NCBI GenBank assembly: GCA_946553025.1
Contig: CAMNRM010000040.1
Coordinates: 1 to 48,255 of the forward strand
Direction of reading: 5' to 3'
Length of the DNA: 48,255 nucleotides
Source: an uncultured Clostridium sp.
Lineage (GTDB): Bacteria > Bacillota > Clostridia > Lachnospirales > Lachnospiraceae
Shown here: one piece after another, positions 6,825 through 41,120 of the stretch
Numbering within the stretch: position 1 is the first letter of the stretch
How the letters are laid out: every line of letters starts with the position of its first letter
Made by a program: the position numbers and the translations under genes
Notes under the pieces: model-generated
Seen by the model: the letters and a program-made list of their open reading frames with translations, nothing else
Databases searched by the model: none
What the model was told of the DNA's origin: nothing

Positions 6825-6934
6825 GGTGAAATTGGGGGTGTTGATAGACGATGAAAGGCGGAGGACTTAAAAAATTATTGCAGACAGTGCAGGGTAAAAA
6901 ATATATTTGAAGAAAATCTTTACCCTTATCAGTA

Positions 6935-6985
6935 AAAAAGAGCATCTACCTTAACAGATATTAAGGTAAATGCTCTTTTTGTTTT
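6935..6985 (+). terminator. Terminator after the AbiE-like pair
   Basis: The left arm AAAAAGAGCATCTACCTTAA pairs with TTAAGGTAAATGCTCTTTTT, with one mismatch and a six-base loop, followed by GTTTT. The A-run before the stem makes it potentially bidirectional. It insulates citDEF from upstream transcription. Confidence 0.88.
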
Positions 6986-7036
6986 AAGGTTTCCGGTCTA
7001 GGATAGAAGTATGATAACAAGCAAGGAGGAAAAGCC

Positions 7037-7336
7037 ATGGAAATTAAGAGAGCGGCGATAGCAGGGACGCTGGAATCGAGCGATTGTCAGGTAACGGTTG
7101 AGCCTGGTGAAGGAAAACTGGATTTGGTTCTGGAAAGTGCAGTGATCCATCAGTTTGGAAACCAGATCCGAAAAGTGACCATGGAAACATTAAAACGTCT
7201 GGGCGTGGAGGATGTAAAGATTACGATTATTGATAAGGGGGCGCTGGACTGCACGATTAAGGCGAGGATTGAGGGCGCTGTTTATCGTTCGCAGGAACAG
7301 ACCGAGCATTTGCCGTGGGGAGGGGCTATCCGCTGA
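7037..7336 (+). CDS. citD: Citrate lyase acyl carrier protein (gamma subunit)
   Basis: A 99-residue protein of usual CitD length. Ser14 in GTLESSDCQV matches the serine that carries the triphosphoribosyl-dephospho-CoA group, which holds the acetyl/citryl thioester in the complex. The strand-rich core GKLDLVLESAVIHQFG is typical. The start ATG is preceded by AAGGAGG. The stop overlaps the citE start by one base (TGATG), giving tight coupling. The maturation genes citC, citG and citX are not in the window and must be supplied elsewhere for an active lyase. Confidence 0.95.
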   Translation: MEIKRAAIAGTLESSDCQVTVEPGEGKLDLVLESAVIHQFGNQIRKVTMETLKRLGVEDVKITIIDKGALDCTIKARIEGAVYRSQEQTEHLPWGGAIR

Positions 7337-8235
7337 TGAATCCGAATAAAAAACGATTAAGAAGAACCATGATGTTTTTAAACGCGCAGAAACCGGGGTT
7401 AATTAAGGACCCGTATATCTATAAGCCGGATTCCATTATCCTGGATTTAGAGGATGCTGTGGCAGAGAATCAGAAGGATGCGGCAAGGTTTTCTCTTTTC
7501 CATGCGCTCAGGGAAATCGATTACCGAGGCGTGGAACGTGTAGTGCGGGTCAATGCGCTGGATACGCCTTACTGGAAGGAGGATATCCGCTGCGCGGTAG
7601 CCGGGGGATGTGACGCTATCCGTGTCCCCAAGGCGGAAAGTGCCAATGATGTAAAGCTGGTGGAGGACGCCGTTTCCTTTGCCGAGAGGGAGTCGAACCG
7701 TCCTATAGGGAGTGTGCTGATTATGGCGGCGATTGAATCGGCAAGGGGTGTGATGAAGGCTCTGGATATCTGCGAGGCGTCGGAGCGGCTTTTTGGCATT
7801 GCCTTATCCGGCGGGGATTATACGAAGGATTTGCAGACCCATATCACCGGAACAGGAATTGAACTGATGGGGGCGAGGCAGAATCTGGTGATTGCTGCCC
7901 GGGCAGCCGGGGTACAGTGTTTTGATACCGTGTATACGAACTTAAATGATATGGATGGATTCCGCCAGGATGTTACGAATATTCATTTGATGGGATTTGA
8001 CGGGAAATCCATTATTAATCCAAGACAGATTCCGGTGGTTCATGAAATTTTTACTCCATCGGCAAAGGATATTCTTTTTGCCGAAAAGGTGGTAAGGGAA
8101 ATTGACGAAAAGAAGGCGCAGGGAATCGGTGTATTTACCGTGGACGGGAAAATGATTGATATTGCATTTTATGACGGGGCAAAGAGGACGATAGCCCTGG
8201 CGAAGGCATCCGGCATATATAAGGGGGACTTATAA
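7336..8235 (+). CDS. citE: Citrate lyase beta subunit (citryl-ACP lyase)
   Basis: A 299-residue HpcH/HpaI-type TIM-barrel protein. It cleaves citryl-ACP to acetyl-ACP and oxaloacetate. Visible family features are the RRTMMFLNAQKPGLI opening, SIILDLEDAV with the metal-binding acidic pair, and the conserved GFDGKSIINPRQIPVV substrate-loop segment. ATG 7336 is chosen: it overlaps the citD stop and has GGGGAGGGG about 12 bases upstream, while an in-frame GTG at 7315 lies inside citD without its own site. Gene order citD-citE-citF is standard. Confidence 0.95.
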   Translation: MNPNKKRLRRTMMFLNAQKPGLIKDPYIYKPDSIILDLEDAVAENQKDAARFSLFHALREIDYRGVERVVRVNALDTPYWKEDIRCAVAGGCDAIRVPKAESANDVKLVEDAVSFAERESNRPIGSVLIMAAIESARGVMKALDICEASERLFGIALSGGDYTKDLQTHITGTGIELMGARQNLVIAARAAGVQCFDTVYTNLNDMDGFRQDVTNIHLMGFDGKSIINPRQIPVVHEIFTPSAKDILFAEKVVREIDEKKAQGIGVFTVDGKMIDIAFYDGAKRTIALAKASGIYKGDL

Positions 8236-28982: not shown

Positions 28983-29037
28983 ATTAGTACAGAAGTAAAA
29001 AACAAGGTAAATGTTTTTGGCAAAGGAGGTTTTTCTT

Positions 29038-30063
29038 ATGGGCAAGATTAAAGTTGTACAGTACGGATGCGGCAAGATGAGCAAATATACGCTGCGTTAT
29101 CTGTATGAAAAGGGAGCACAGATCGTAGGGGCGATTGATGTAAACCCGGAAATTGTCGGTATGGATGTGGGGGATTATGCGGAACTGGGTGTGAAAACCG
29201 GAGTTCTGATCAGTGACAATGTCGATGAAGTTTTAGACAACACCGATCCCGATATCGCGGTTGTCACCTTATTCAGTCTGGTAAGCGACTGCTATGATCA
29301 CTATGTAAAATGTTTAAGCCGCGGAATCAGCGTGATTACGACCTGCGAGGAAGCGACCTACTGCTGGACCACCGATCCGGTGCGGGCAAATCAGCTGGAC
29401 GTGCTGGCGAAGGAAAATAATTGTACCTTTGTGGGAAGCGGCATGGAAGATACTTTCTGGGTAAATATGGTCGGCATGGTTGCCGGAAGCTGCCACACGA
29501 TTAAAAAGATTGAGGGCGAAGTAAGCTACAATGTCGAAGAATACGGACTTGCCTTGGCAAAAGCGCACGGTGTAGATTTAACGCCGGAAGAGTTTGAAAA
29601 GCAGATTGCGCATCCCGAAGTGTTAGAGCCTTCCTATGTATGGAATTCCAACGAAGCCCTGGCGGCAAAGATGGGCTGGACGATCAAGAGCCAGACGCAG
29701 AAATGCGTTCCGTATTTCCATGACAGCGATATCTATTCCTCCACCATGGGCAAGGATATTAAGAAGGGCAATTGCATCGGCATGGCAGCCGTGGTAACGA
29801 CGGAAACCTTCCAGGGCCCGGTGATTGAAACCAAGTGTATCGGCAAGGTTTACGGCCCGGACGACGGGGATATGTGCGACTGGAAGATTACCGGCGAGCC
29901 GGATACCGAGTTCCATGTTGTAAAACCGGCAACTGTGGAGCACACCTGCGCAACCATTGTCAACCGGATTCCCAGCGTGCTGCGTGCACCAGCCGGACTG
30001 ATTACCATGGATGAACTGGATGAGATAGAATATATGACTTATCCGATGGAGTTTTATTGCTGA
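29038..30063 (+). CDS. 2,4-diaminopentanoate dehydrogenase-like oxidoreductase
   Basis: A 341-residue NAD(P)-dependent enzyme of the Ord/DAPDH group, related to dihydrodipicolinate reductase. The N-terminal Rossmann motif is [17 protein letters not shown]. The segments [33 protein letters not shown] and [12 protein letters not shown] are typical of the group. In Clostridia, Ord oxidises 2,4-diaminopentanoate in oxidative ornithine breakdown, next to ortAB and oraSE. None of those genes is here, so the substrate may be a related amino acid. ATG 29038 has AAAGGAGG upstream, and the gene has its own promoter. Confidence 0.78.
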
Positions 30064-30423: not shown

Positions 30424-30448
30424 TGGTATAATTGACCCATTAGTGGGT
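30424..30448 (+). promoter_or_regulatory. Wadjet operon promoter with overlapping palindrome
   Basis: TGGTATAAT (30424-30432) is an extended consensus -10. ACCCA-TTAG-TGGGT (30435-30448) follows at the probable transcription start, as an operator or a 5' hairpin. The -35 region is weak. The jetA start is about 107 bases downstream, a longer leader than most genes here have. Confidence 0.6.
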
Positions 30449-30538
30449 TTGTCTGTAAGTTATTTCTATTTCATAATTAAAAAATGGGTGCCAAAAATAA
30501 AATTTACTGTTAATTTACTTGAAAGAAACGAGAATCTT

Positions 30539-31978
30539 ATGATGAATTTATTCGATAAAATCCCCTCCGGTTTTTTTAACTGCTTAGCGAGCGGGAGCAA
30601 TAATCGTATTTATGCAGACTGTCTGCAGATTATCTATGAACAGTACGACCGGGAGATTACCTACCGGATTTCCAGGAACAGGATTCGCGATGCGCTTGCC
30701 GCGTATTTGCTGGAAAATCATATTGATTTTCTGGATCAGGACAATGAATCCGATGATGCAAAATCCCTTAAAGGTGAACGAAATTATAATGATATGGCAA
30801 ATGGAATTATCCGAAAATTCTGCTCGAAAGATATTGGATGGCTGGAGGAGGAATCGGATGATGCTACCTATGAAAAGCACATTATCATGACGGAAGAGGG
30901 AATTTTATTAGTCGAATTTTTACAAAATCTAATTAAGCCCGAACGCGAAGAATTTTCCAGTTATATTTTTAATATCTATAATGTTCTGCAAAATAAGGAA
31001 CAGTGGCGGCAGGACCCTTATGTTGACGCCCTGAAAAATGTTTACCGCAATGCACGTCTGTTATCAAAGTCGCTGAAGCGCCTGGCGACCTTTATTAAAA
31101 AGATTATTGAGCGGATGGTTAAGGAAGAAACCCTGGAAAGTTTAACTGAAAATCTTCTGGAATACTGCGACGGCAATTTTATCCGCGAATATGCAAGGCT
31201 GACGAAGCAGCAGAACATTCATATTTATCGTTCATTCATTAAATCCCGCTTAGAAGAAATGCAGAATAATCCCGAATTAAGTGAACTTCTGTACATCGGC
31301 TGTGCGCTGGAGGAAGGTATAGAGGAAGAAAAAGCAAGGGAAATGGTTTTGGATATGCTGCAGGCGACAAAGCGTTTTCTCGCCGAAGATTATGATCGGA
31401 TTATGCGGGATATTAAGCATAAAATCAATATTTATTTACAGATTGCCATTGGCCGTGCGCGGTTTTTAAGAAACCGTGAGGCAGATATGCGGGGGAATGT
31501 GGAACAGACCATACGCTATCTTGTCCGCGAAATGAACCAGATTGGCTGGAGGGAGGAAATTCCCGAAGAGATGCGGGGGTTATTTTCTCTGGATCGACAT
31601 GAATTTATCGATACCGGCTCGCTTCGCTATCCAAGGAAACCAAAAACCATTCAAAGAGAAACCGTGGTTGAACTGGAGGAAATGAGTGAAGAGGATGTAT
31701 TAAGAACACAGGCAGCACATGAAAAGGAAGCCTATAACCCCTATGCAAAGGAAAAGATGAAGGAATACTTAGAAGCCGTGATGAATAAGAAAACCACTAT
31801 TTCCTGCGAACACCTCCCCATGCAGGGAAAGCGGGATCTGCTCTGTGCATTGTCAGCCATTGCCTACAGCGATGAAAACGGCTATGCGGTGCAGTTGGAG
31901 GACGGCTATCTTCAGGTTAATGAACTGCTTCTGCGGAGGTTTTCGATAAGCAGGGCAGATGATAAGCAGGGCAGATGA
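30539..31978 (+). CDS. jetA: Wadjet defence protein JetA (kleisin-like)
   Basis: A 479-residue protein that I assign to the JetA family of the DUF5716 type from its opening (NLFDKIPSGFFNCLASGSN), its mostly helical make-up and its gene order. JetA is the kleisin subunit that bridges the JetC ATPase heads. With JetB and JetC it forms an SMC-like motor that extrudes loops on incoming plasmid DNA so that JetD can cut it. ATG 30539 (or the adjacent 30542) is chosen; the ribosome site is weak, and codons upstream encode an unlikely hydrophobic stretch. The last residues (ISRADDKQGR) come from a 16-bp tandem repeat that carries the stop codon, so repeat-number changes would alter the C-terminus. 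Confidence 0.88.
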   Translation: MMNLFDKIPSGFFNCLASGSNNRIYADCLQIIYEQYDREITYRISRNRIRDALAAYLLENHIDFLDQDNESDDAKSLKGERNYNDMANGIIRKFCSKDIGWLEEESDDATYEKHIIMTEEGILLVEFLQNLIKPEREEFSSYIFNIYNVLQNKEQWRQDPYVDALKNVYRNARLLSKSLKRLATFIKKIIERMVKEETLESLTENLLEYCDGNFIREYARLTKQQNIHIYRSFIKSRLEEMQNNPELSELLYIGCALEEGIEEEKAREMVLDMLQATKRFLAEDYDRIMRDIKHKINIYLQIAIGRARFLRNREADMRGNVEQTIRYLVREMNQIGWREEIPEEMRGLFSLDRHEFIDTGSLRYPRKPKTIQRETVVELEEMSEEDVLRTQAAHEKEAYNPYAKEKMKEYLEAVMNKKTTISCEHLPMQGKRDLLCALSAIAYSDENGYAVQLEDGYLQVNELLLRRFSISRADDKQGR

Positions 31979-32040: not shown

Positions 32041-32096
32041 AATGATTAGGCGGTCAGTGCGCTGGGGGATGAAACATACACAGAATGGAGGAAATC

Positions 32097-32894
32097 GTGA
32101 ATTTCGACGAATTTTGGAAGGATTGTACATCATCAGAAAAGGATTTATTTCAAAAATCATGCAGGCGGCTTTTAAAGTCTACCTTTATTGTGCGTGATAA
32201 GGATGAGGAGAATAAAAAAGCCTATTATTTTATTGCGAAGCACCCGGAGCCGTTTTCCATGTATTTGGGCTATATAGGGTTTGACGTTGTGGTGGACAGG
32301 GATAACGGGGTAATTATGCTTTCTAACTGTGCAGATATGGCAGAAAGCGGGCGACTGCAGTCGAACAGGATGGCATTGAAGAAGATGGAAAGCATTGTGC
32401 TCTGCTGTCTTTGGACGCTGTATGCGGACAGGATTCGATCGGGGAGTCTTTCACAGGCAATCTTTATTTCAGTTGTCGATTTAAACTTTGAACTGGAAAA
32501 ATATGAAGTAAAAGAACTGATTGACAATAAAAAGCTGATCACCGATATTTTAACCTTATTTTCCCGCTTTAATCTTGTGGATATTAAAGGAAAAATCGGG
32601 GATGCCGACTGTATGATTCGGCTGTATCCGTCGCTGGCCTTTGCCTTAAATGCAGAGGAATTTACTCGCTTTGCCGAGGTTACGCGAAAGCGGATGCTGG
32701 AAAAGGGCGGGGAAGATGAGCAGGATTTTGAAGAATTATCGGACGGAGAGGATGAGGAGTATAGCATAGAATTATCGGATGGAGAGGATGAGGAGGATAG
32801 CATAGAATTATCGGACAGAGAGGACGAGGAGTATAGCATAGAATTATCGGATGAAGAAGGCGAGGAGGGGCAGGACGATGAAGCAGATGAATAG
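32097..32894 (+). CDS. jetB: Wadjet defence protein JetB (KITE-like)
   Basis: A 265-residue protein of the DUF4194/JetB type. Residues 1-200 form the helical and winged core (FWKDCTSSEKDLFQKSCRRL, then GYIGFDVVVDRDNGVIML), which in Wadjet is the KITE dimer that binds the JetA kleisin. Residues from about 213 are a very acidic tail of four 12-residue repeats, ELSDGEDEEYSI with drift. GTG 32097 is chosen because GGAGG lies six bases upstream; an ATG at 32085 overlaps that site. The gene overlaps jetC by 17 bases. Confidence 0.87.
   Translation: MNFDEFWKDCTSSEKDLFQKSCRRLLKSTFIVRDKDEENKKAYYFIAKHPEPFSMYLGYIGFDVVVDRDNGVIMLSNCADMAESGRLQSNRMALKKMESIVLCCLWTLYADRIRSGSLSQAIFISVVDLNFELEKYEVKELIDNKKLITDILTLFSRFNLVDIKGKIGDADCMIRLYPSLAFALNAEEFTRFAEVTRKRMLEKGGEDEQDFEELSDGEDEEYSIELSDGEDEEDSIELSDREDEEYSIELSDEEGEEGQDDEADE
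32733..32876 (+). repeat. Four 36-bp in-frame repeats encoding the acidic tail of JetB
   Basis: Units at 32733, 32769, 32805 and 32841 each encode 12 residues, ELSDGEDEEYSI with changes. The fourth is diverged, and its end (GAGGAGGGG, 32862-32870) forms the ribosome site of jetC. Period 36 is in frame, so copy number could vary without breaking jetB. Confidence 0.92.
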
Positions 32895-35800
32895 GAAAAC
32901 CGCGACAAAGCTTTTGATGGTGCAGTGGTCAAGGTTTCAGCGCTTATGTGTAAATCTGGAAGGTTCCACGCTCTTTACCGGGGTAAACGGAAGCGGGAAA
33001 TCGACGATTTTGGATGCCATGACCTACCTTCTCACCGGAAACCGGCAGTTTAATAAGGCGGCAAAGGATCGGGATCGAACGGTACTTGCCTATGTGCGCG
33101 GCGATACCAAAAGCAACGGGCCTTCCCGCTTTCTGCGCTCCGGGGAAGTGATTAGCTATATTGCGATGGAGTTCTGGTCGCCGGTGGAAAATCAGTTTAT
33201 GGTGGTCGGCGTGTGCATAGAATCAGCTAATGAAACCGCGCAGAAAAGCAGCTGGTTTATCTGCCGCGATACAAGGATAGAGGAGATAGCATTTACTAAA
33301 ACAGAAGGAAAATTCCTGAAAATCACACCGAAAAGTGAACTTCTGGTCAAGGGACAGTCCATGAAATCCGCGGATTTCTGGAACCGTGATCGGGGTGTGG
33401 ATCAGGTATTAAGGGCACTTGGACTGCGCTGCAATACAGAAAAATATCGCTCAAAACTGTTAAAAATGATGGCTTTTGACCCGCAGAATAATATTGATCA
33501 GTTTATTCAGGAATGTGTATTAGAGCCGGGAAAGGTGGAGTCCTTAAAGGAACTGCGGGAGCAGAGGCAGCGCTTTGAACAGATTAAAGAGGTCTATGAA
33601 AACCTGCGGAAAAGCAAGGGAAAATTAGAGGAAGTTGAGAAAAAAAGCATTGAATATGAAAAGAAAAAGAGGGATTTACATATCCGGGAATTAATGCTTT
33701 CTTACCAGGATTTAAGGCAGAAGGAAGAGGAAGAAAAGGAAATTGCGCTGCAGATGGAGGCATTGAAGCAAAAGCTTATTCACCTGCAGGGGCAGAAAAG
33801 CAGCCTGGACAGGCGCTATGACGATGCAGTAGAGCGCTATCGGATTGCCCAGAATAACGATATGGTTAAGGGGATGCAGGAAAGCCTGAATGAAATGGAG
33901 AGGCAGCGAAAAGGGCTGGAGGAGGAAATTCGACAAAATGAAGAAAGGCTGGCGAAATTAAAGCGCCTCCAGATAAAGCTTTCGGAAATTTTGCCCTGGA
34001 TGGAAGAGTTTTTGCATGTTTCCGCAGAGGATAAGCGCCGTCTGGAACGGCTGACAGAGAGGGAAGTTTCGACAGAGAAAAAGGTCGATGCCTTTGTCCG
34101 CTTTGCCGATATGGTCGGGGCACAGGATAAGCTGTTTGCCACAGACGAGGTGCATATTGACGACCAGATAAAGCGGTTTGATGAAGAGATCCGCGAATTA
34201 GAACAGAAGATAAAGCAGCTTGAAGCCAATATTTTAGTATTTCCCAAAGCGATTGAGGATGCAAGGCAAGTGATTCAAAAGGAATTTGCAAGGGAAGGGA
34301 TTCACACCGAAGTCAGGATTTTTGCTGAACTTGTACAGGAAGTGAAGGATGAAAAGTGGCGTGCGGCGATTGAAACTTTTTTGCGGAGAAAGAGATTTTT
34401 CCTGATTGTTGAGGGAAAATACTGTCATAAGGCTTTGGAAATCCTGCAGAAAAAGCAATTACATGCAGCCAATGTGGTGATTACGGATAAGCTTCCCGAT
34501 ACAAAAATTACGCCGGATTCCGCAGCGGAAATATTGACCATACCCAATCCCAATGCGCGGAAATTTGCCAATTTTCTTTTAAATGGAATACATTTATGCG
34601 GGTCATTAGAAGAATTACATGAACATCCAAAGGGCGGTATTACGCAGGATGGAATGCTGGCAAAAGGCTATTCTTTTTCCTGTATGGAGATGAAGAAAAC
34701 AGAGTTTTGCCTGGGACAGGACGCAATAAAATTTCAGCTGGAAAAGGCGAAAGAAGAGAAGAAAAGCAGGGAAAGAGAAAGAGGAAATCTCTGGAAAAAC
34801 AAGGAAAAGCTGTGCGCACAGCGAAAGGCATTAAGCCAGGTGGACTGGCAGGCCGGGCACTATGATTTCGGGGCGGCAGCGGCTCTGGAAGAGGCGGCAA
34901 AGGCGCAGAAAGGACTTGCAAAGAGGATAGAAGAAATCCGTAAAAACCCTGATTTTATGGCTGTTTTACAGGAGGTGGAGGATGCGAAAAAGGAATATCA
35001 GCGGCTTGGAGAGGAGAAGGATCGCCTTGCCGGGGATATCCGGGGCTGTGAAAAGGACCAGGAGCAGGGACAGAAGGAACAAAAAGACTTATCCGGGGAA
35101 ATTTATCGGATGAAAAGGGAGTATTCGGAGCAGTGTTTGCAGCATTTGGAACTGGAAAAACCGATGCTTGAGGAGTATGAGAGGTTAAGGGAAAAGGCAG
35201 GAGGCAAAGCAAAAGATACATCGGAAAATAAGCAAAAGGATAACGCTGAATATCATAGAGAAAAGACAGAAGAAGATAGAGGGAGCTGGCGGGTGATTAC
35301 TCCAAGGCAGGTAAAAGCCCTGAAAACCGAGCTGGAAACCTGTGTCCGGCAGCTGGAAAATGTGCAGATTGAGTATTGCCGACTGGCAGAAATCGATATG
35401 AATAAGCGGGGAGTTGCCTATATTTCTTTTTTCCGGGAGGAATACAGGAATATTGCCAATATTAAGGTTGAAGAAGCGAAGTGCCGCCTGGACGAGCAGT
35501 CATTAAAGCTGGAAAATGCCTTTATGAATGACTTTGTGGCAGAGATGAATGAAACGATTTATGATGCAAAAAATGAAATTGCAGCGATAAATCATGAACT
35601 TAAACAACTTCCCTTCGGCAATGATACCTATAAGTTTGTGATGAAGGAAAAGCCGGATCGGGCAGTGTTTTTCCGCATTTGCCGAAGGCTGGAGGATTAT
35701 ATGAGCACCCCGGAGGTCTATATGAATTCGGCAAGGGAAGATGAGGAAATGGAGCGGGATATCCGGGAATTTATGGAAGTGATTTTGGATGAAGAGGACG

Positions 35801-36216
35801 AACGGGAGTACACGGATTACCGCAAATATTTTGTGTACGATATGGAGATTGTAAGCCGCCAGGGGGGCAGCGAGATTGTTTCCGATCTTTCCAAAAAACA
35901 GGGTTCAGCCAGCAACGGAGAGAAGCAGACACCGTACTTTATTATCCTGGCGGCAAGCCTTCTGCAGTGCTATCCGCGAACAGCCTGCTGTGCAAGGCTG
36001 GCCTTTATCGACGAGGCATTTTCGGCATTGTCCAGGGAGAGGATCGAGCAGATGGTGAAGTATCTGGAGGATAATCATTTTCAGGTGTTCTATGCTGCGC
36101 CGCCGGAGAAAATCAACAGTATCGGAACCTATATTGATTCAACGGTAAGCCTGGTTATTACGGGAAGATATACAAATGCGGTGGAGGGGTTGGTGAAAGA
36201 TGGAGATAACACTTAG
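32878..36216 (+). CDS. jetC: Wadjet SMC-like ATPase JetC
   Basis: A 1112-residue SMC/MukB-like protein. The Walker A motif is GVNGSGKST at residues 35-43. Two long coiled coils (about 230-480 and 620-860) flank a hinge-like globular region near 490-610. The C-terminal head holds the signature region KQGSASNGEKQTPYFIIL and Walker B AFIDEAFSAL at about 1040-1050. All ATPase motifs look intact. JetC supplies the DNA-extruding motor of the Wadjet anti-plasmid complex. ATG 32878 is chosen because GAGGAGGGG lies eight bases upstream; it overlaps the jetB end. An extra low-complexity segment near 775-800 (KAKDTSENKQKDNAEYHREK) lies in the second coil. Confidence 0.93.
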   Translation: MKQMNRKTATKLLMVQWSRFQRLCVNLEGSTLFTGVNGSGKSTILDAMTYLLTGNRQFNKAAKDRDRTVLAYVRGDTKSNGPSRFLRSGEVISYIAMEFWSPVENQFMVVGVCIESANETAQKSSWFICRDTRIEEIAFTKTEGKFLKITPKSELLVKGQSMKSADFWNRDRGVDQVLRALGLRCNTEKYRSKLLKMMAFDPQNNIDQFIQECVLEPGKVESLKELREQRQRFEQIKEVYENLRKSKGKLEEVEKKSIEYEKKKRDLHIRELMLSYQDLRQKEEEEKEIALQMEALKQKLIHLQGQKSSLDRRYDDAVERYRIAQNNDMVKGMQESLNEMERQRKGLEEEIRQNEERLAKLKRLQIKLSEILPWMEEFLHVSAEDKRRLERLTEREVSTEKKVDAFVRFADMVGAQDKLFATDEVHIDDQIKRFDEEIRELEQKIKQLEANILVFPKAIEDARQVIQKEFAREGIHTEVRIFAELVQEVKDEKWRAAIETFLRRKRFFLIVEGKYCHKALEILQKKQLHAANVVITDKLPDTKITPDSAAEILTIPNPNARKFANFLLNGIHLCGSLEELHEHPKGGITQDGMLAKGYSFSCMEMKKTEFCLGQDAIKFQLEKAKEEKKSRERERGNLWKNKEKLCAQRKALSQVDWQAGHYDFGAAAALEEAAKAQKGLAKRIEEIRKNPDFMAVLQEVEDAKKEYQRLGEEKDRLAGDIRGCEKDQEQGQKEQKDLSGEIYRMKREYSEQCLQHLELEKPMLEEYERLREKAGGKAKDTSENKQKDNAEYHREKTEEDRGSWRVITPRQVKALKTELETCVRQLENVQIEYCRLAEIDMNKRGVAYISFFREEYRNIANIKVEEAKCRLDEQSLKLENAFMNDFVAEMNETIYDAKNEIAAINHELKQLPFGNDTYKFVMKEKPDRAVFFRICRRLEDYMSTPEVYMNSAREDEEMERDIREFMEVILDEEDEREYTDYRKYFVYDMEIVSRQGGSEIVSDLSKKQGSASNGEKQTPYFIILAASLLQCYPRTACCARLAFIDEAFSALSRERIEQMVKYLEDNHFQVFYAAPPEKINSIGTYIDSTVSLVITGRYTNAVEGLVKDGDNT

Positions 36217-37426
36217 CCAGTGGCAGAAAAAAGTTCTGGAATCTTTGCTGAATCAGTATGAAAACAGCAAGACTTACCGGGAGAAGAATAAGGTCACGCA
36301 GACATTTTCAGTTTCTCCGGCAAAAGTTTTCCCTGATTATGATTCTGATTTTGTGGATATTGACCTTGTACATGATTTTGAACAGCAGATGAAGGAATTA
36401 GAACAGAGCGGACTTCTTGTGATTATCCGAAAAAATGGTGTGATGGCAAAATTAATGGCCAATCCGTGGAGATGGGGAGATGTTTATAAGCTTTTAGGAA
36501 AAAAAGGGCGCAGGCAGAAAGAGCAGGAGCAGGCGAAAGTTTATGAGGAATTTCTGGCGATTGATCCGGGGATGGATGCTTTTTGCCAGGGGCAGATTGC
36601 GCGGTTAAATGAGGGAGCAAAACCAATATTTGCACCGGATAAAGCAAAAAAGCTGTTAAAGTTGTGGAAATTCCTTGCAGAAAATCAGGAGGAGGTACTG
36701 GAACGGGAACTGTCCATTGCCGTATTGGGGGACAGTAAGATGTGGGAAAGAAGGTATCGCTCCATGCTATGCCGGTTACTGCGAAAATATAATGATTTTG
36801 AAGCGATTCTTCTCGGTGTGGATGATAAAAGAGAGGCGGAAAAGATAATTTTAAGGGAGTATCATGTGGAAGCAAATCCTTCTTTTGCCTATATTAAGGG
36901 AGAATCAGAGATTTTCTTTTCGGATGGACAAAGATTAAGGATAGCCCCGGATATGCCCATTGCGCTTACAGAAAAAACCCTGGAGAGCGTTTGTGCAGTA
37001 AAGATTCTGGCAAAAAAAGTAATGACGGTTGAAAACCTGACTTCTTTTCATCGAATGGCGCAAAAGGAATATTTTTACCTGTTTTTGAGTGGGTATCATA
37101 ACCATATGAAACAACGGCTGCTGTGTAAAATCAACGCTGATAATCCAGAAATCCAGTGGTGTCATTTTGGTGATATTGACCCGGACGGGTTTTATATTAT
37201 TGAGCATTTGATTAAGGGAACAGGGATAGAATTTCAGCCTGTTTATATGGATACCGCCTGTCTGAAAAAGTATGATTCCTATACGAAACCATTGAATGAA
37301 AACGATGTGCGGAAGGCAAAATCTTTACTTGAACAGGGAAAATATCCGGAAGTTATGGGATATATGCTGGATAAAAATAAAAAGCTGGAGCAGGAGATTG
37401 TGAGTTGGATGATGGGGAGGAAATAA
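36200..37426 (+). CDS. jetD: Wadjet nuclease JetD (Toprim)
   Basis: A 408-residue protein of the JetD (DUF3322/DUF2220) type. An N-terminal helical arm domain leads to a C-terminal Toprim domain with the conserved Glu in VENLTSFH at about 277 and the DxD motif in HFGDIDPDGFYII at about 320-330, both needed for metal-dependent cleavage. JetD cuts circular DNA that the JetABC motor has fully extruded. The start overlaps jetC by 17 bases with GGAGGGG upstream, so the last three genes of the operon are translationally coupled. No terminator was seen before the next promoter. Confidence 0.92.
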   Translation: MEITLSQWQKKVLESLLNQYENSKTYREKNKVTQTFSVSPAKVFPDYDSDFVDIDLVHDFEQQMKELEQSGLLVIIRKNGVMAKLMANPWRWGDVYKLLGKKGRRQKEQEQAKVYEEFLAIDPGMDAFCQGQIARLNEGAKPIFAPDKAKKLLKLWKFLAENQEEVLERELSIAVLGDSKMWERRYRSMLCRLLRKYNDFEAILLGVDDKREAEKIILREYHVEANPSFAYIKGESEIFFSDGQRLRIAPDMPIALTEKTLESVCAVKILAKKVMTVENLTSFHRMAQKEYFYLFLSGYHNHMKQRLLCKINADNPEIQWCHFGDIDPDGFYIIEHLIKGTGIEFQPVYMDTACLKKYDSYTKPLNENDVRKAKSLLEQGKYPEVMGYMLDKNKKLEQEIVSWMMGRK

Positions 37427-37446
37427 ATTGTAAAATTACTATATAA

Positions 37447-37497
37447 ATGGAAACAGATTTTGATTTTGAGAATTTGTTTTTGCCGTTGCGTTTCCAT
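37447..37497. promoter_or_regulatory. Inverted repeat at the cassette promoter
   Basis: ATGGAAAC (37447-37454) and GTTTCCAT (37490-37497) are perfect inverted copies. The second overlaps the -35 box of the cassette promoter, so a repressor or looping site is possible. Confidence 0.4.
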
Positions 37498-37514
37498 ATA
37501 AAATTTAGTATAAT
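37486..37514 (+). promoter_or_regulatory. Sigma-A promoter of the three-gene cassette
   Basis: TTGCGT (37486-37491), a 17-base spacer and TATAAT (37509-37514) lie 57 bases before the first start codon. Confidence 0.75.
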
Positions 37515-37571
37515 TAGGGAAGTGGAAAAGAAGGACGGCGAATAATAAAAAGATGAGGGGGTATAAGAATT

Positions 37572-38225
37572 ATGCAAAGTTTAATTAGGTTTTCTTTGTT
37601 TGGAAATTACGAAAGATTTAGTACGAATAATTTAGAAACTTATATGAAATTGATTGAGTTTTTTGGAAAAAAGGGATATAAGCCAGCAACCGCAAATGAA
37701 CTGCAACTACAGGCAAATGGTCAGGCTCGGGTGCTTATTATGCCTACATTTTTTAATGAATCCAATAGTACAGTAGAAATAATGTCAAATCGCATAAATT
37801 TCCAGAAAATGATTAATAAAGCGGCTGATATCCATAAATTAAATGAAGAGTTTGCCAGTGAATTTTTGGATATGGTGACAACGTTTATTCCAGATATGGC
37901 AATTATTTCAAATAGGGTGGCTTTAAACTGTAATATACTGAAAGATGATATAGTGTCAGAAATGCCAACTCAATCAAGTTATTTTGATAATGTAAATAAA
38001 ACGGAAATGTCCGTGAGAAATGCTGCACGTATAGAAGTAGAAAAAGAAGAAAGCAATATAATTATTGAAAAATATGTTACTGAACAAGGTGGATTTACCA
38101 GATATTCTTATGATATTAATTCAATTGAAGAAAATCAGGCAAGCCGTTTTCATTCGGATAAAATTAAAAAAATGTATGAAGCTTATGTAAGGATAGCTGT
38201 AGAAATAGAGAAGGGGCTGAAATAG
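37572..38225 (+). CDS. Hypothetical protein A of an unknown three-gene cassette
   Basis: A 217-residue soluble protein that I do not recognise. The N-terminal half alternates strands and helices (SLIRFSLFGNYERFSTNNLE, then ARVLIMPTFFNESNSTVEIMS). The phrase STVEIMSNRINFQK recalls the mid-region of sporadic TIGR04255-type proteins, but the match is too weak to assign. The C-terminal part is charged, with a short helical end. No signal peptide, membrane helix or catalytic motif is visible. GAGGGGG precedes the start. The codon use is more AT-rich than in the Wadjet genes. The stop is followed directly by the start of gene B with no gap. Confidence 0.75.
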   Translation: MQSLIRFSLFGNYERFSTNNLETYMKLIEFFGKKGYKPATANELQLQANGQARVLIMPTFFNESNSTVEIMSNRINFQKMINKAADIHKLNEEFASEFLDMVTTFIPDMAIISNRVALNCNILKDDIVSEMPTQSSYFDNVNKTEMSVRNAARIEVEKEESNIIIEKYVTEQGGFTRYSYDINSIEENQASRFHSDKIKKMYEAYVRIAVEIEKGLK

Positions 38226-38831
38226 ATGATTGGCTATAAAGGTATTGATTCTTTATCTTTTGATTTAAAAGTAGTTCTATTAGATGAAAATGACTTTGAA
38301 TATGCATCATATTTGGAAACAGACCCGAATATAAATAAAAGCAAAACAAGAAGATTTAGCAATATGATTAGCAGTGATATTGCTAGACAGTTTAAAGATA
38401 TGCAAGAGCAGGTTATGAGTAAGGAAATACCAATATTATCAAGACTTTTGGATGAAACACCATTTGACACAGGATATGAATCTTTGGCTGAAAGATATTT
38501 TGAACAATTATCAGAAAATTATGGTCCTATAGCAGATACAATACTTCAAAATATATATCTTCAGAATATGTACCATAATCAGTATTTGTTAAAACATCTT
38601 TTATTTATTGTTAGCAATTTGCCTGCAAGTAAAAGAAAAAATCTTGAGATTATTCCATTAGCAGGAATTTCTAATCCTGATATAGAAATTCAGGATTTAT
38701 CCGTAAAATGTTTCGAGGCTTGGGAAGATAAACGGCATGTGCCAACATTAATTAACCTGCGTAATCATACCAGGGTTCAATGGTTTAAAGACTATATAAG
38801 TGATGTAATTGATGAATTAGAAGAGGAATAG
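38226..38831 (+). CDS. Hypothetical protein B of an unknown three-gene cassette
   Basis: A 201-residue soluble, largely helical protein. I do not recognise its family. The C-terminal 90 residues read like a short alpha-solenoid or HEAT-like repeat (NPDIEIQDLSVKCFEAWEDK, then HVPTLINLRNHTRVQWFKDY), a pattern common in adaptor or sensor proteins. The N-terminal part contains LDENDFEYASYLETDPNINK. It begins on the base after gene A's stop, with AAGGGG upstream, and gene C begins one base after its stop; such packing implies one multi-protein product. Confidence 0.75.
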   Translation: MIGYKGIDSLSFDLKVVLLDENDFEYASYLETDPNINKSKTRRFSNMISSDIARQFKDMQEQVMSKEIPILSRLLDETPFDTGYESLAERYFEQLSENYGPIADTILQNIYLQNMYHNQYLLKHLLFIVSNLPASKRKNLEIIPLAGISNPDIEIQDLSVKCFEAWEDKRHVPTLINLRNHTRVQWFKDYISDVIDELEEE

Positions 38832-38832
38832 A

Positions 38833-39348
38833 ATGGCATACTATATAAGAAAAATTTCACGTTCTAAGTGGCAGGATAATCCATTAAGTACAAATGAAGA
38901 AAAGGCATTACAAGAAATAAGAAGTGTATCCGCAGATGCGATAACTAATTGTATAAAAACAACTGGCAATAGGTTATCCATATGGAAGGTTGAAGAAAAA
39001 AATAATTCTATTGATGATATTATTCCTTTGATCATTGGCTTTGAAAGGCCAGATACTTGTGATGTTATTTATATACCTGAAGAACTGTTCTTTGAAGAAG
39101 GAATAAGCTTGGAACAATCTTCGGAGGACGCAAATACACCATTGGAGGAACTGAAACAATATCATTACAATGCTATTGTTAATAATTATGAAGGATTGGG
39201 TAAATTTGCAAAAGTAGTGTTAAAGTCCCTAAGTAATCATAAACGATTTAGAGGGAGAGAGGTCAAAACAAAATTAAAAGAAATGTTAATTAATCATGAT
39301 ATAGATAAGGATATGATCTCATTAAAGCTATACGAAAAAATCAAATGA
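38833..39348 (+). CDS. Hypothetical protein C of an unknown three-gene cassette
   Basis: A 171-residue soluble protein starting MAYYIRKISRSKWQD. I know no family for it. The N-terminal half suggests an alpha/beta fold (NRLSIWKVEEKNNSIDDIIP, then CDVIYIPEELFFEEGISLE); the end is helical and basic (KRFRGREVKTKLKEMLINHD). No catalytic motif can be named. It is the last gene of the A-B-C unit, which lies directly after Wadjet jetD, and is followed by a relic of an AraC regulator. No terminator was seen. Confidence 0.75.
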   Translation: MAYYIRKISRSKWQDNPLSTNEEKALQEIRSVSADAITNCIKTTGNRLSIWKVEEKNNSIDDIIPLIIGFERPDTCDVIYIPEELFFEEGISLEQSSEDANTPLEELKQYHYNAIVNNYEGLGKFAKVVLKSLSNHKRFRGREVKTKLKEMLINHDIDKDMISLKLYEKIK

Positions 39349-39445
39349 GTGCTATTTGGATTATTTGTATATTCTGACAATAAATCTTTTTGTGATCTTG
39401 TAAAATAATCATTCTTATTTCATGAGGATCTTACTCCCTGTTTGA

Positions 39446-39717
39446 TTAATGTAGAACCTCCCACCAGTTCCTTCGTACCTGCAAAGGCGTGGCGTGAAAA
39501 TGCTCGGCAAATACCTGCGAAACAATTTATAATTGGTAAACCCATGGCGTTCCAGGATTTGCTGTAAGGTATCATTTGTTGACAGCAAGTCCTGGTAAAT
39601 ATGGGACAGGCGGACTTTGATTTCTTTGAATATTTGGCAGATGAGGGGAAAGCAGTGGATTGACTGATAAAATATCGATGAAATTCTGTTATCTATCTTA
39701 AGGCAGAATTTCTTGTG
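39446..39717 (-). pseudogene. AraC-family regulator relic
   Basis: On the minus strand, one frame encodes the end of an AraC-type regulator (SHIYQDLLSTNDTLQQILER, then HGFTNYKLFRR). At about 39513-39515 a one-base loss shifts to a second frame, FAEHFHATPLQVRRNWWE, which completes the second helix-turn-helix and ends at a stop (39446-39448). A stop at 39718-39720 closes the upstream side, and the sensor half is missing. It marks decayed DNA at the edge of the three-gene cassette. Confidence 0.72.
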
Positions 39718-39762
39718 CTATCCTTAATGCAGAACTTCATCTGGCTGTCCTTGCAGGAATCT
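39694..39762. repeat. Degenerate 25-27-bp repeats before the phosphatase gene
   Basis: TATCTTAAGGCAGAATTTCT, TATCCTTAATGCAGAACTTC and TGTCCTTGCAGGAATCT recur in tandem from 39694. They overlap the 5' edge of the AraC relic and the -35 box downstream. Confidence 0.4.
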
Positions 39763-39779
39763 GAGGATTGTGCTATGCT
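39751..39779 (+). promoter_or_regulatory. Sigma-A promoter of the histidine phosphatase gene
   Basis: TTGCAG (39751-39756), a 17-base spacer and TATGCT (39774-39779) lie 30 bases before the start codon. Confidence 0.65.
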
Positions 39780-39809
39780 AAAGCATAATGAAAATCATGG
39801 AGGGCAGAA

Positions 39810-40583
39810 ATGAGAATATTAATGATACGCCATGGAGATCCGGATTATGAACATGATTCTCTTACAGAAGTAGGGAAGAAAGAGGCGGCGCTGCTTGCTG
39901 AAATTGCCGAAGATTTGCATATGGGGGACTGCTTTGTATCACCGCTTGGCCGGGCGCAGGAAACGGCATCTTACAGCCTGAAAAAGCTGAACCGCTCGGC
40001 AAAGACCCTGGACTGGCTTCGGGAATTTCCGGCAAAGCTGGATATTAACGGTTCGGAAGAACTGCAGAAGGCTTATCCTGACACAAAAATGAAAGATGGG
40101 TTCTACATACCAAGGATTGTCTGGGATATGGTGCCGTCCTATTATCTGACCCACCCGGAATATACGGACAGAAAAGCCTGGCGGGAGTCTGCGGTGGCGA
40201 AAAAAAGCGATATGATTTCTCTGTACGATAAGGTGACTGCAAGTCTGGATGAACTGCTTTCCGGTTATGGCTATGTTCGGGACGGGATGCTTTATCGCGT
40301 GGAGAGGGCGAGTACAGATACAGTTACGTTCTTTTGCCATTTTGGTTTAAGCTGCGTTCTTCTTTCTCACCTGATGAATGTATCACCGTTTTCGCTCTGG
40401 CATGGGACGGTTTTGGCACCGACTTCCGTGACGGAGGTGATAACGGAGGAGCGGGAGCAGGGAATTGCCATGTTCCGTGCACAGCGCATAGGGGATGTGC
40501 ATCATCTTCTGGCTGGCGGAAGGAAACCGTCATTTTCTGCAAGGTTTTGCGAAACGTATAATGATGTGGGGCAGAGGCATTAA
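39810..40583 (+). CDS. Histidine phosphatase (phosphoglycerate mutase-like)
   Basis: A 257-residue cytosolic protein. MRILMIRHGDPDYEHD carries the catalytic RHG motif; SPLGRAQETA supplies the second Arg and TFFCHFGLS the later His. It therefore belongs to the histidine phosphatase superfamily, longer than the usual 200 residues because of an insert around 90-150. Members dephosphorylate small metabolites or act as mutases; the substrate is unknown. GGAGGG precedes the start. Confidence 0.85.
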   Translation: MRILMIRHGDPDYEHDSLTEVGKKEAALLAEIAEDLHMGDCFVSPLGRAQETASYSLKKLNRSAKTLDWLREFPAKLDINGSEELQKAYPDTKMKDGFYIPRIVWDMVPSYYLTHPEYTDRKAWRESAVAKKSDMISLYDKVTASLDELLSGYGYVRDGMLYRVERASTDTVTFFCHFGLSCVLLSHLMNVSPFSLWHGTVLAPTSVTEVITEEREQGIAMFRAQRIGDVHHLLAGGRKPSFSARFCETYNDVGQRH

Positions 40584-40631: not shown

Positions 40632-41120
40632 ATGGATAAAATTATCAATGTAGCACAATATGTATTTGAAGAATACAGAAGGGTAACCGGAGAAGTGATT
40701 GATGAGATGAAACTTCATAAACTGCTTTATTTTGCGCAGCGGGAGTCACTTGCAATTATAAATGAGCCTCTTTTTGAAGGTGAATTTGAAGGGTGGAAAT
40801 ATGGGCCTGTGTGTAAGGAAATCCGCAATTCCATTACCCCGGATGGTATTATTGACGTTGATGGAGATATATCTGACGAAGGAAAGTATATTGTCAATAA
40901 TGTGATTCTGGAATACGGTTCCCTTGCTTCCTGGAAATTAAGTGAACTGTCCCATAAAGAACTTTCCTGGAAAAATGCGAGAATTGGATTCCATGAAGGG
41001 GAAAATGGAAATCACAAATTGAAACTTGAGGATATCCGAAAAGATGCGCAGAAAGTCAGACCTTATGATCATGTGTGGGATATGTATTATGATGAGTTTG
41101 AAGATGAGGTGATGGAATGA
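40632..41120 (+). CDS. Panacea-domain (DUF4065/SocA-like) antitoxin
   Basis: A 162-residue protein with the Panacea/DUF4065 pattern: MKLHKLLYFAQRESLAIINE, FEGEFEGWKYGPVCKEI and SWKLSELSHKELSWKNAR. Panacea proteins act as antitoxins for many unrelated toxins. The next gene overlaps by four bases (ATGA) and encodes a MazF/PemK-type protein, so this is a type II-like pair. The start has GGAAGTGAG upstream. Confidence 0.87.
   Translation: MDKIINVAQYVFEEYRRVTGEVIDEMKLHKLLYFAQRESLAIINEPLFEGEFEGWKYGPVCKEIRNSITPDGIIDVDGDISDEGKYIVNNVILEYGSLASWKLSELSHKELSWKNARIGFHEGENGNHKLKLEDIRKDAQKVRPYDHVWDMYYDEFEDEVME

Follow-up and report, generated by a model that had tools for sequence, protein, structure and literature searches.

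A mobile three-gene operon next to Wadjet in an uncultured Clostridium: a candidate defence system

Three adjoining genes, here called A, B and C, lie directly downstream of a Wadjet operon in the genome of an uncultured Clostridium sp. of the family Lachnospiraceae (contig CAMNRM010000040.1 of assembly GCA_946553025.1, whose 48,255 analysed nucleotides we refer to as the window). The open reading frames (ORFs) agree with an initial annotation of this DNA, which described a trio of 217, 201 and 171 codons packed with gaps of zero and one base (Table 1). The trio is also, as described there, richer in AT than its surroundings: the GC contents of A, B and C are 0.31, 0.30 and 0.31, respectively, versus 0.44 for jetABCD, 0.445 for the genes that follow and 0.448 for the window. 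The Wadjet system upstream is complete, with JetA to JetD all giving clear PADLOC matches, and A, B and C are indeed unrecognised, in that none of them scores above the cut-off of any Pfam or NCBIfam model and PADLOC yields no match. We found that the trio moves as a unit, occurring in prophages, on small plasmids and in other genomes.

When identical C proteins were merged, 28 distinct proteins from 59 loci were obtained, counting the window itself and two loci from the same genome; an alignment search located 3 loci in genome_contigs and 47 in viral_contigs. B is present alongside 27 of the 28 and A alongside 26, and in all 26 with A the genes follow one another as A, B and C, spaced by -50 to +11 bases if the longest ORFs are taken. 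Where A is missing, either a 246-amino-acid ORF fills its slot (L010) or the operon is broken (L040, an Acinetobacter-type viral contig, in which a transposase gene at approximately 6900-8200 lies inside the trio and the start of C is lost). In L006 (phage B1251; 4001-4186), L056 and L057, C is shortened to 61 amino acids, with A and B intact. Eight further genomes (L080, L091-L097) contain B adjoining C in seven cases and an A detectable by profile in two; a TIGR04255 gene stands in A's place in L095 and a broken one in L096, L091 and L092 carry B-C without A, and L094 carries C only. Together, B adjoins C at 34 of 36 distinct C loci (27/28 + 7/8). The initial annotation had named homologues scattered without conserved neighbours as a finding that would count against it; instead, A, B and C stay together.

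Several of these loci are on mobile elements. In P2-like prophages, the trio has gpA (replication) on one side and gpQ (portal) on the other, an assignment based on PHROGs matches in L044 (gpA, portal and terminase), on a PHROGs match to gpA and a portal gene identified by eye in L046, and on inspection by eye in L038; in Escherichia coli CV839-06, the same position follows from the RefSeq annotation. An E. coli prophage trio is also represented by L118 (6001-7874). The gpA-gpQ region of P2-like prophages is described as an anti-phage hotspot, in which P2 itself carries old and tin, and three of eight further systems cloned in the hotspot study were active (Rousset et al. 2022, PMC9122126). 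In other phages, the trio is found near NinB (L050), beside integrases (L013 and L045) and after an endolysin gene (L014). A tblastn search with C matched 11 phage records, all from Acinetobacter, 8 of which cover only the first 51 residues, and nine records of a plasmid collection, two of them chromosome-sized. A, B and C occur in a row on plasmids of 4.4, 7.5 and 8.1 kb, and a 5.0 kb plasmid has B and C together with an A that is truncated where the record begins. On two of these plasmids, the 4.4 kb one from Klebsiella and the 5.0 kb one from Enterobacter, the trio is the main cargo, accompanied by genes for replication and a handful of small ORFs. Klebsiella Col-type plasmids also have a small DUF1471/YdgH-like ORF after the trio (L004 2237-2353, L007 2695-2811).

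Carriers are rare. Searches with a C profile (a single C protein for a set of 61 relatives), with each count including the starting genome, gave a match in 1 of these 61 relatives, in 1 of 200 genomes of the family and in 2 of 398 of the phylum. Counts were similarly low in the class of a Serratia carrier (2 of 369) and in the phyla of a planctomycete carrier (4 of 199) and a Bacteroidales carrier (4 of 296). Among 5426 E. coli genomes, a first allele was found in four and a second query in six, four of them shared with the first, giving at least six carriers; a third query had no matches in these genomes. Such sparse occurrence is the pattern of a gene set moving between hosts.

C belongs to phrog_10743 (PHROGs E-value 1.6e-27), a family of unknown function, and carries a strictly conserved set of residues: all 33 sequences of the alignment share R6, W13, S49, W51 and H111. 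Together with the predicted model described below, this calls for a revision of the earlier remark that the trio shows no catalytic motif. Position 113 varies between D, N and E in the same alignment. The predicted model of C weakly resembles ADP-ribosyltransferase (ART) enzymes, and several separate ART families fill the upper VIA rows. In this model, R6 falls on strand 1 and S49 on strand 2, while strand 5 holds both H111 and position 113; these places correspond to those of the ART active site by the order of elements, without residue-level superposition. The third motif of C would then be H-x-[D/N/E], compared with the usual Glu of ADP-ribosyltransferases. Foldseek with the C model returned nothing significant and rows of mixed folds, and no PDB profile matched C. 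DarT and Tpt1/KptA, members of the ADP-ribosyltransferase superfamily, likewise show no sequence match to C and no significant Foldseek similarity. C may be an ART-fold protein, and we propose it as the effector. B is a member of phrog_21208 (PHROGs E-value 1.2e-8), also of unknown function, with a variable N-terminal part and a more conserved C-terminal part. The case for the HEAT-like repeat attributed to it is weak: no Pfam HEAT-type model scores above its cut-off, UTP20_N matching with an E-value of 0.0054 (15.6 bits versus a cut-off of 27.6).

A is probably a divergent relative of TIGR04255, an NCBIfam family of unknown function for which we found no mention in the literature searched. 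A of the window does not match TIGR04255 at E-values up to 5 and does not reach the curated cut-off of 30 bits, and 1 of 23 relatives scores an E-value of 0.0042. We compared a profile of the A family, widened with four intermediates (L097, L080, L099 and L093), with a profile built from 11 TIGR04255 proteins. The local E-values were 1.9e-4 and 3.3e-4 (probabilities of 48% and 38%), both alignments keeping a single register over approximately 150 columns, whereas the E-values of five control profile pairs were 0.25 or worse; without the four intermediates, the E-values for A and TIGR04255 are 0.004 to 0.008. The predicted model of A (pLDDT 79.6) consists of a duplicated beta-sheet saddle and two long helices. 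A TIGR04255 gene can take the place of A, as is seen in L095, in which a TIGR04255 protein (115.6 bits) occupies the first position before B and C. In L111, a Crinalium plasmid, the gene after TIGR04255 encodes a 182-amino-acid protein, unrelated to B by profile, and a C homologue (E-value 3e-8) comes next.

These two are the only loci with C among the 11 TIGR04255 loci inspected (L095, L102, L103 and L110-L117). Three others, from distant bacteria, resemble the trio in having three adjoining genes with TIGR04255 first, and differ from it in their middle genes and their HEPN-like third genes: each of these is related among the three loci, but profile comparison shows no relation to B or C (Table 1). 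The HEPN-like assignment rests on Pfam E-values of 4.2e-6 in L110 (above the cut-off) and 0.008 in L102 (below it), and on 50% identity to L110 in L113. Because the R-x4-6-H usual in the last helix of HEPN proteins was not seen by eye, we claim no RNase activity for them. The remaining six loci have differing partners, mostly unknown, one of which, in Vibrio, is annotated with a zeta toxin. L114 (6243-6635) and L115 (4177-4716) share a third protein with the motifs SVF and PPRHANI, which has no significant Pfam family and is not related to C by profile. It is conceivable, and on balance still doubtful, that a large, unrecognised class of three-gene defence systems has a TIGR04255-type protein as its constant sensor and exchanges the genes in second and third place, with an ART-fold effector and a helical adaptor here and HEPN-like or other third proteins elsewhere. 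As for defence genes nearby, a PsyrT-type helicase is encoded approximately 4 kb from the L095 trio; for the TIGR04255 cassettes, type I methylases are encoded near L103 and L111, and Old near L117, of which only L111 has C. Because the ten neighbours scanned had been picked by eye for their likely role in defence, and two of them matched nothing, the scan is an illustration and not a statistic.

Among known systems, the trio may be compared with 3HP, which we take to be the PADLOC name of a P1-protecting three-gene system and which, like the trio, consists of three genes without known domains at the P2 gpA-gpQ hotspot. A three-gene system from this hotspot, without clear predicted domains, is reported to protect against P1 (PMC9122126), and output of PADLOC-DB 2.0.0 lists 3HP under a reference number shared with PARIS (PMC10855318). 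Eight loci supplied 18 trio proteins, none of which matches PADLOC-DB 2.0.0 at E-values up to 1 (3 proteins) or 5 (15 proteins), while PADLOC recognised four genes of the SopEPhi hotspot as ShosA/ShosT- and PDC-M11-type. The trio is different from 3HP as modelled in PADLOC; the separation is made through the PADLOC models, with the presence of 3HP in version 2.0.0 taken from the output in PMC10855318.

Our preferred, tentative interpretation, plausible and somewhat short of probable, is that A, B and C form a mobile conflict (defence) operon of three components. In this operon, A would be the sensor that binds a product of the invading phage or plasmid. B, the most constant partner of C and present beside it even where A is absent, would either relay the signal as an adaptor or, as an inhibitor, keep C inactive. 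C would be an ART-fold effector that modifies a host or phage target with NAD, and its action would halt the infection, probably by stopping the cell. The whole operon is conserved in an antiviral hotspot and on several kinds of mobile elements, as would be expected of a mobile anti-phage system. The earlier suggestion of a new defence module gains firmer ground than position in the window alone from the presence of the same operon in a P2-like antiviral hotspot and as cargo of small plasmids; the defence function itself is still something we infer. The truncation of C in L006, L056 and L057 and the transposase insertion in L040 might reflect C being the costly part.

Several considerations weigh against this interpretation. 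Plain decay would give the same truncations of C and the same break in L040, and the gpA-gpQ hotspot holds non-defence genes too (PMC9122126). A serious rival, although we consider it unlikely, is an addiction (toxin-antitoxin) module that retains its plasmid or prophage, with C as the toxin, B or A-B as the antitoxin, and phage defence as a side effect. The existence of plasmids of 4.4 and 5.0 kb whose main cargo is the trio, the constancy of B as partner of C, and the truncation of C alone in three loci that keep A and B would all suit such a module; however, it would have three genes where two suffice, it occurs in the gpA-gpQ hotspot of integrated prophages, and TIGR04255, the probable relative of A, has changing partners elsewhere. 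Rather unlikely, in our view, is a system of defence or exclusion whose C protein, instead of being an enzyme of the ART fold, would bind nucleic acid or serve as a scaffold. The non-significant Foldseek result with its mixed folds, the lack of a PDB profile match and the unfixed acid at position 113 favour it, to the detriment of an ART-fold effector, whereas five residues (R, W, S, W, H) that never vary among the 33 divergent sequences resemble an active or binding site, and ART folds of several separate families appear in the upper VIA rows.

We regard as improbable a phage accessory operon that aids the phage in lysogeny, replication or anti-defence and was picked up by plasmids and chromosomes. 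The 47 loci from viral contigs (partly a bias, since that collection was searched), the location of some loci in early or nin-like regions and the non-defence genes of the gpA-gpQ region are compatible with it. Yet the position of the trio varies by phage (gpA-gpQ, near NinB, beside an integrase or after an endolysin), which argues against a fixed phage function, and the trio also occurs next to Wadjet in the window and on small plasmids whose annotation lists no phage genes. That the trio is an accessory part of the adjoining Wadjet, as the initial annotation also considered, has already been largely refuted and seems highly improbable: apart from its location directly downstream of jetD in the window, the trio differs from the jet genes in base composition, is carried by small plasmids, and among 128 fetched loci with limited flanks is accompanied by a match to Jet proteins (E-value 1e-4) only in L001, a locus of the window's own genome.

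Two features ascribed to the region upstream of A did not hold up. The proposed consensus promoter has a perfect -10 element (6/6) and a -35 element matching at just 3/6 positions, and is missing from the list of a promoter scan of 37000-40000, in which 13 promoter-like sites versus a mean of 14.9 in shuffled sequences were found, i.e. the trio promoter is not above chance. The inverted repeat is one of five weak pairs within 241 bases, no more than chance as far as shown. Beyond the trio, the described AraC relic could be made out by eye as an AraC-type C-terminal remnant (approximately 39420-39640, minus strand), situated between the trio and a phosphatase-like gene. Directly after the latter is a SocA/Panacea-domain antitoxin-like gene (40632..41120, plus strand; PF13274, E-value 8.3e-18). 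Upstream of jetA, 29011-30063 encodes a relative of 2,4-diaminopentanoate dehydrogenase (154 bits versus a cut-off of 400).

Table 1. Coordinates of the trio, its surroundings in the window and the TIGR04255 cassettes with HEPN-like third genes.
Feature	Sequence	Position	Strand	Remarks
gene A	window	37572..38225	+	ORF of 217 amino acids; first gene of the AT-rich trio
gene B	window	38226..38831	+	ORF of 201 amino acids; gap to A of 0 bases
gene C	window	38833..39348	+	ORF of 171 amino acids; gap to B of 1 base
jetA	window	30443-31978	+	Wadjet context; profile and PADLOC matches
jetB	window	32085-32894	+	Wadjet context; profile and PADLOC matches
jetC	window	32851-36216	+	Wadjet context; profile and PADLOC matches
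jetD	window	36200-37426	+	Wadjet context; trio directly downstream
possible promoter	window	37486..37514	+	TTGCGT (37486-37491), 17 nucleotides, TATAAT (37509-37514)
imperfect inverted repeat	window	37444..37500		arms 37444-37454 and 37490-37500, 10/11 bases paired
TIGR04255, middle gene, HEPN-like gene	L102	5010-6695		
TIGR04255, middle gene, HEPN-like gene	L110	4992-6686		
TIGR04255, middle gene, HEPN-like gene	L113	5020-6681		

The smallest natural carriers of the trio are plasmids of 4-5 kb, which makes cloning and phage tests easy. If the defence interpretation is correct, prophages, plasmids and the genomes of several phyla would share a 1.8 kb cassette that the PADLOC library misses, and TIGR04255 would gain its first testable role.
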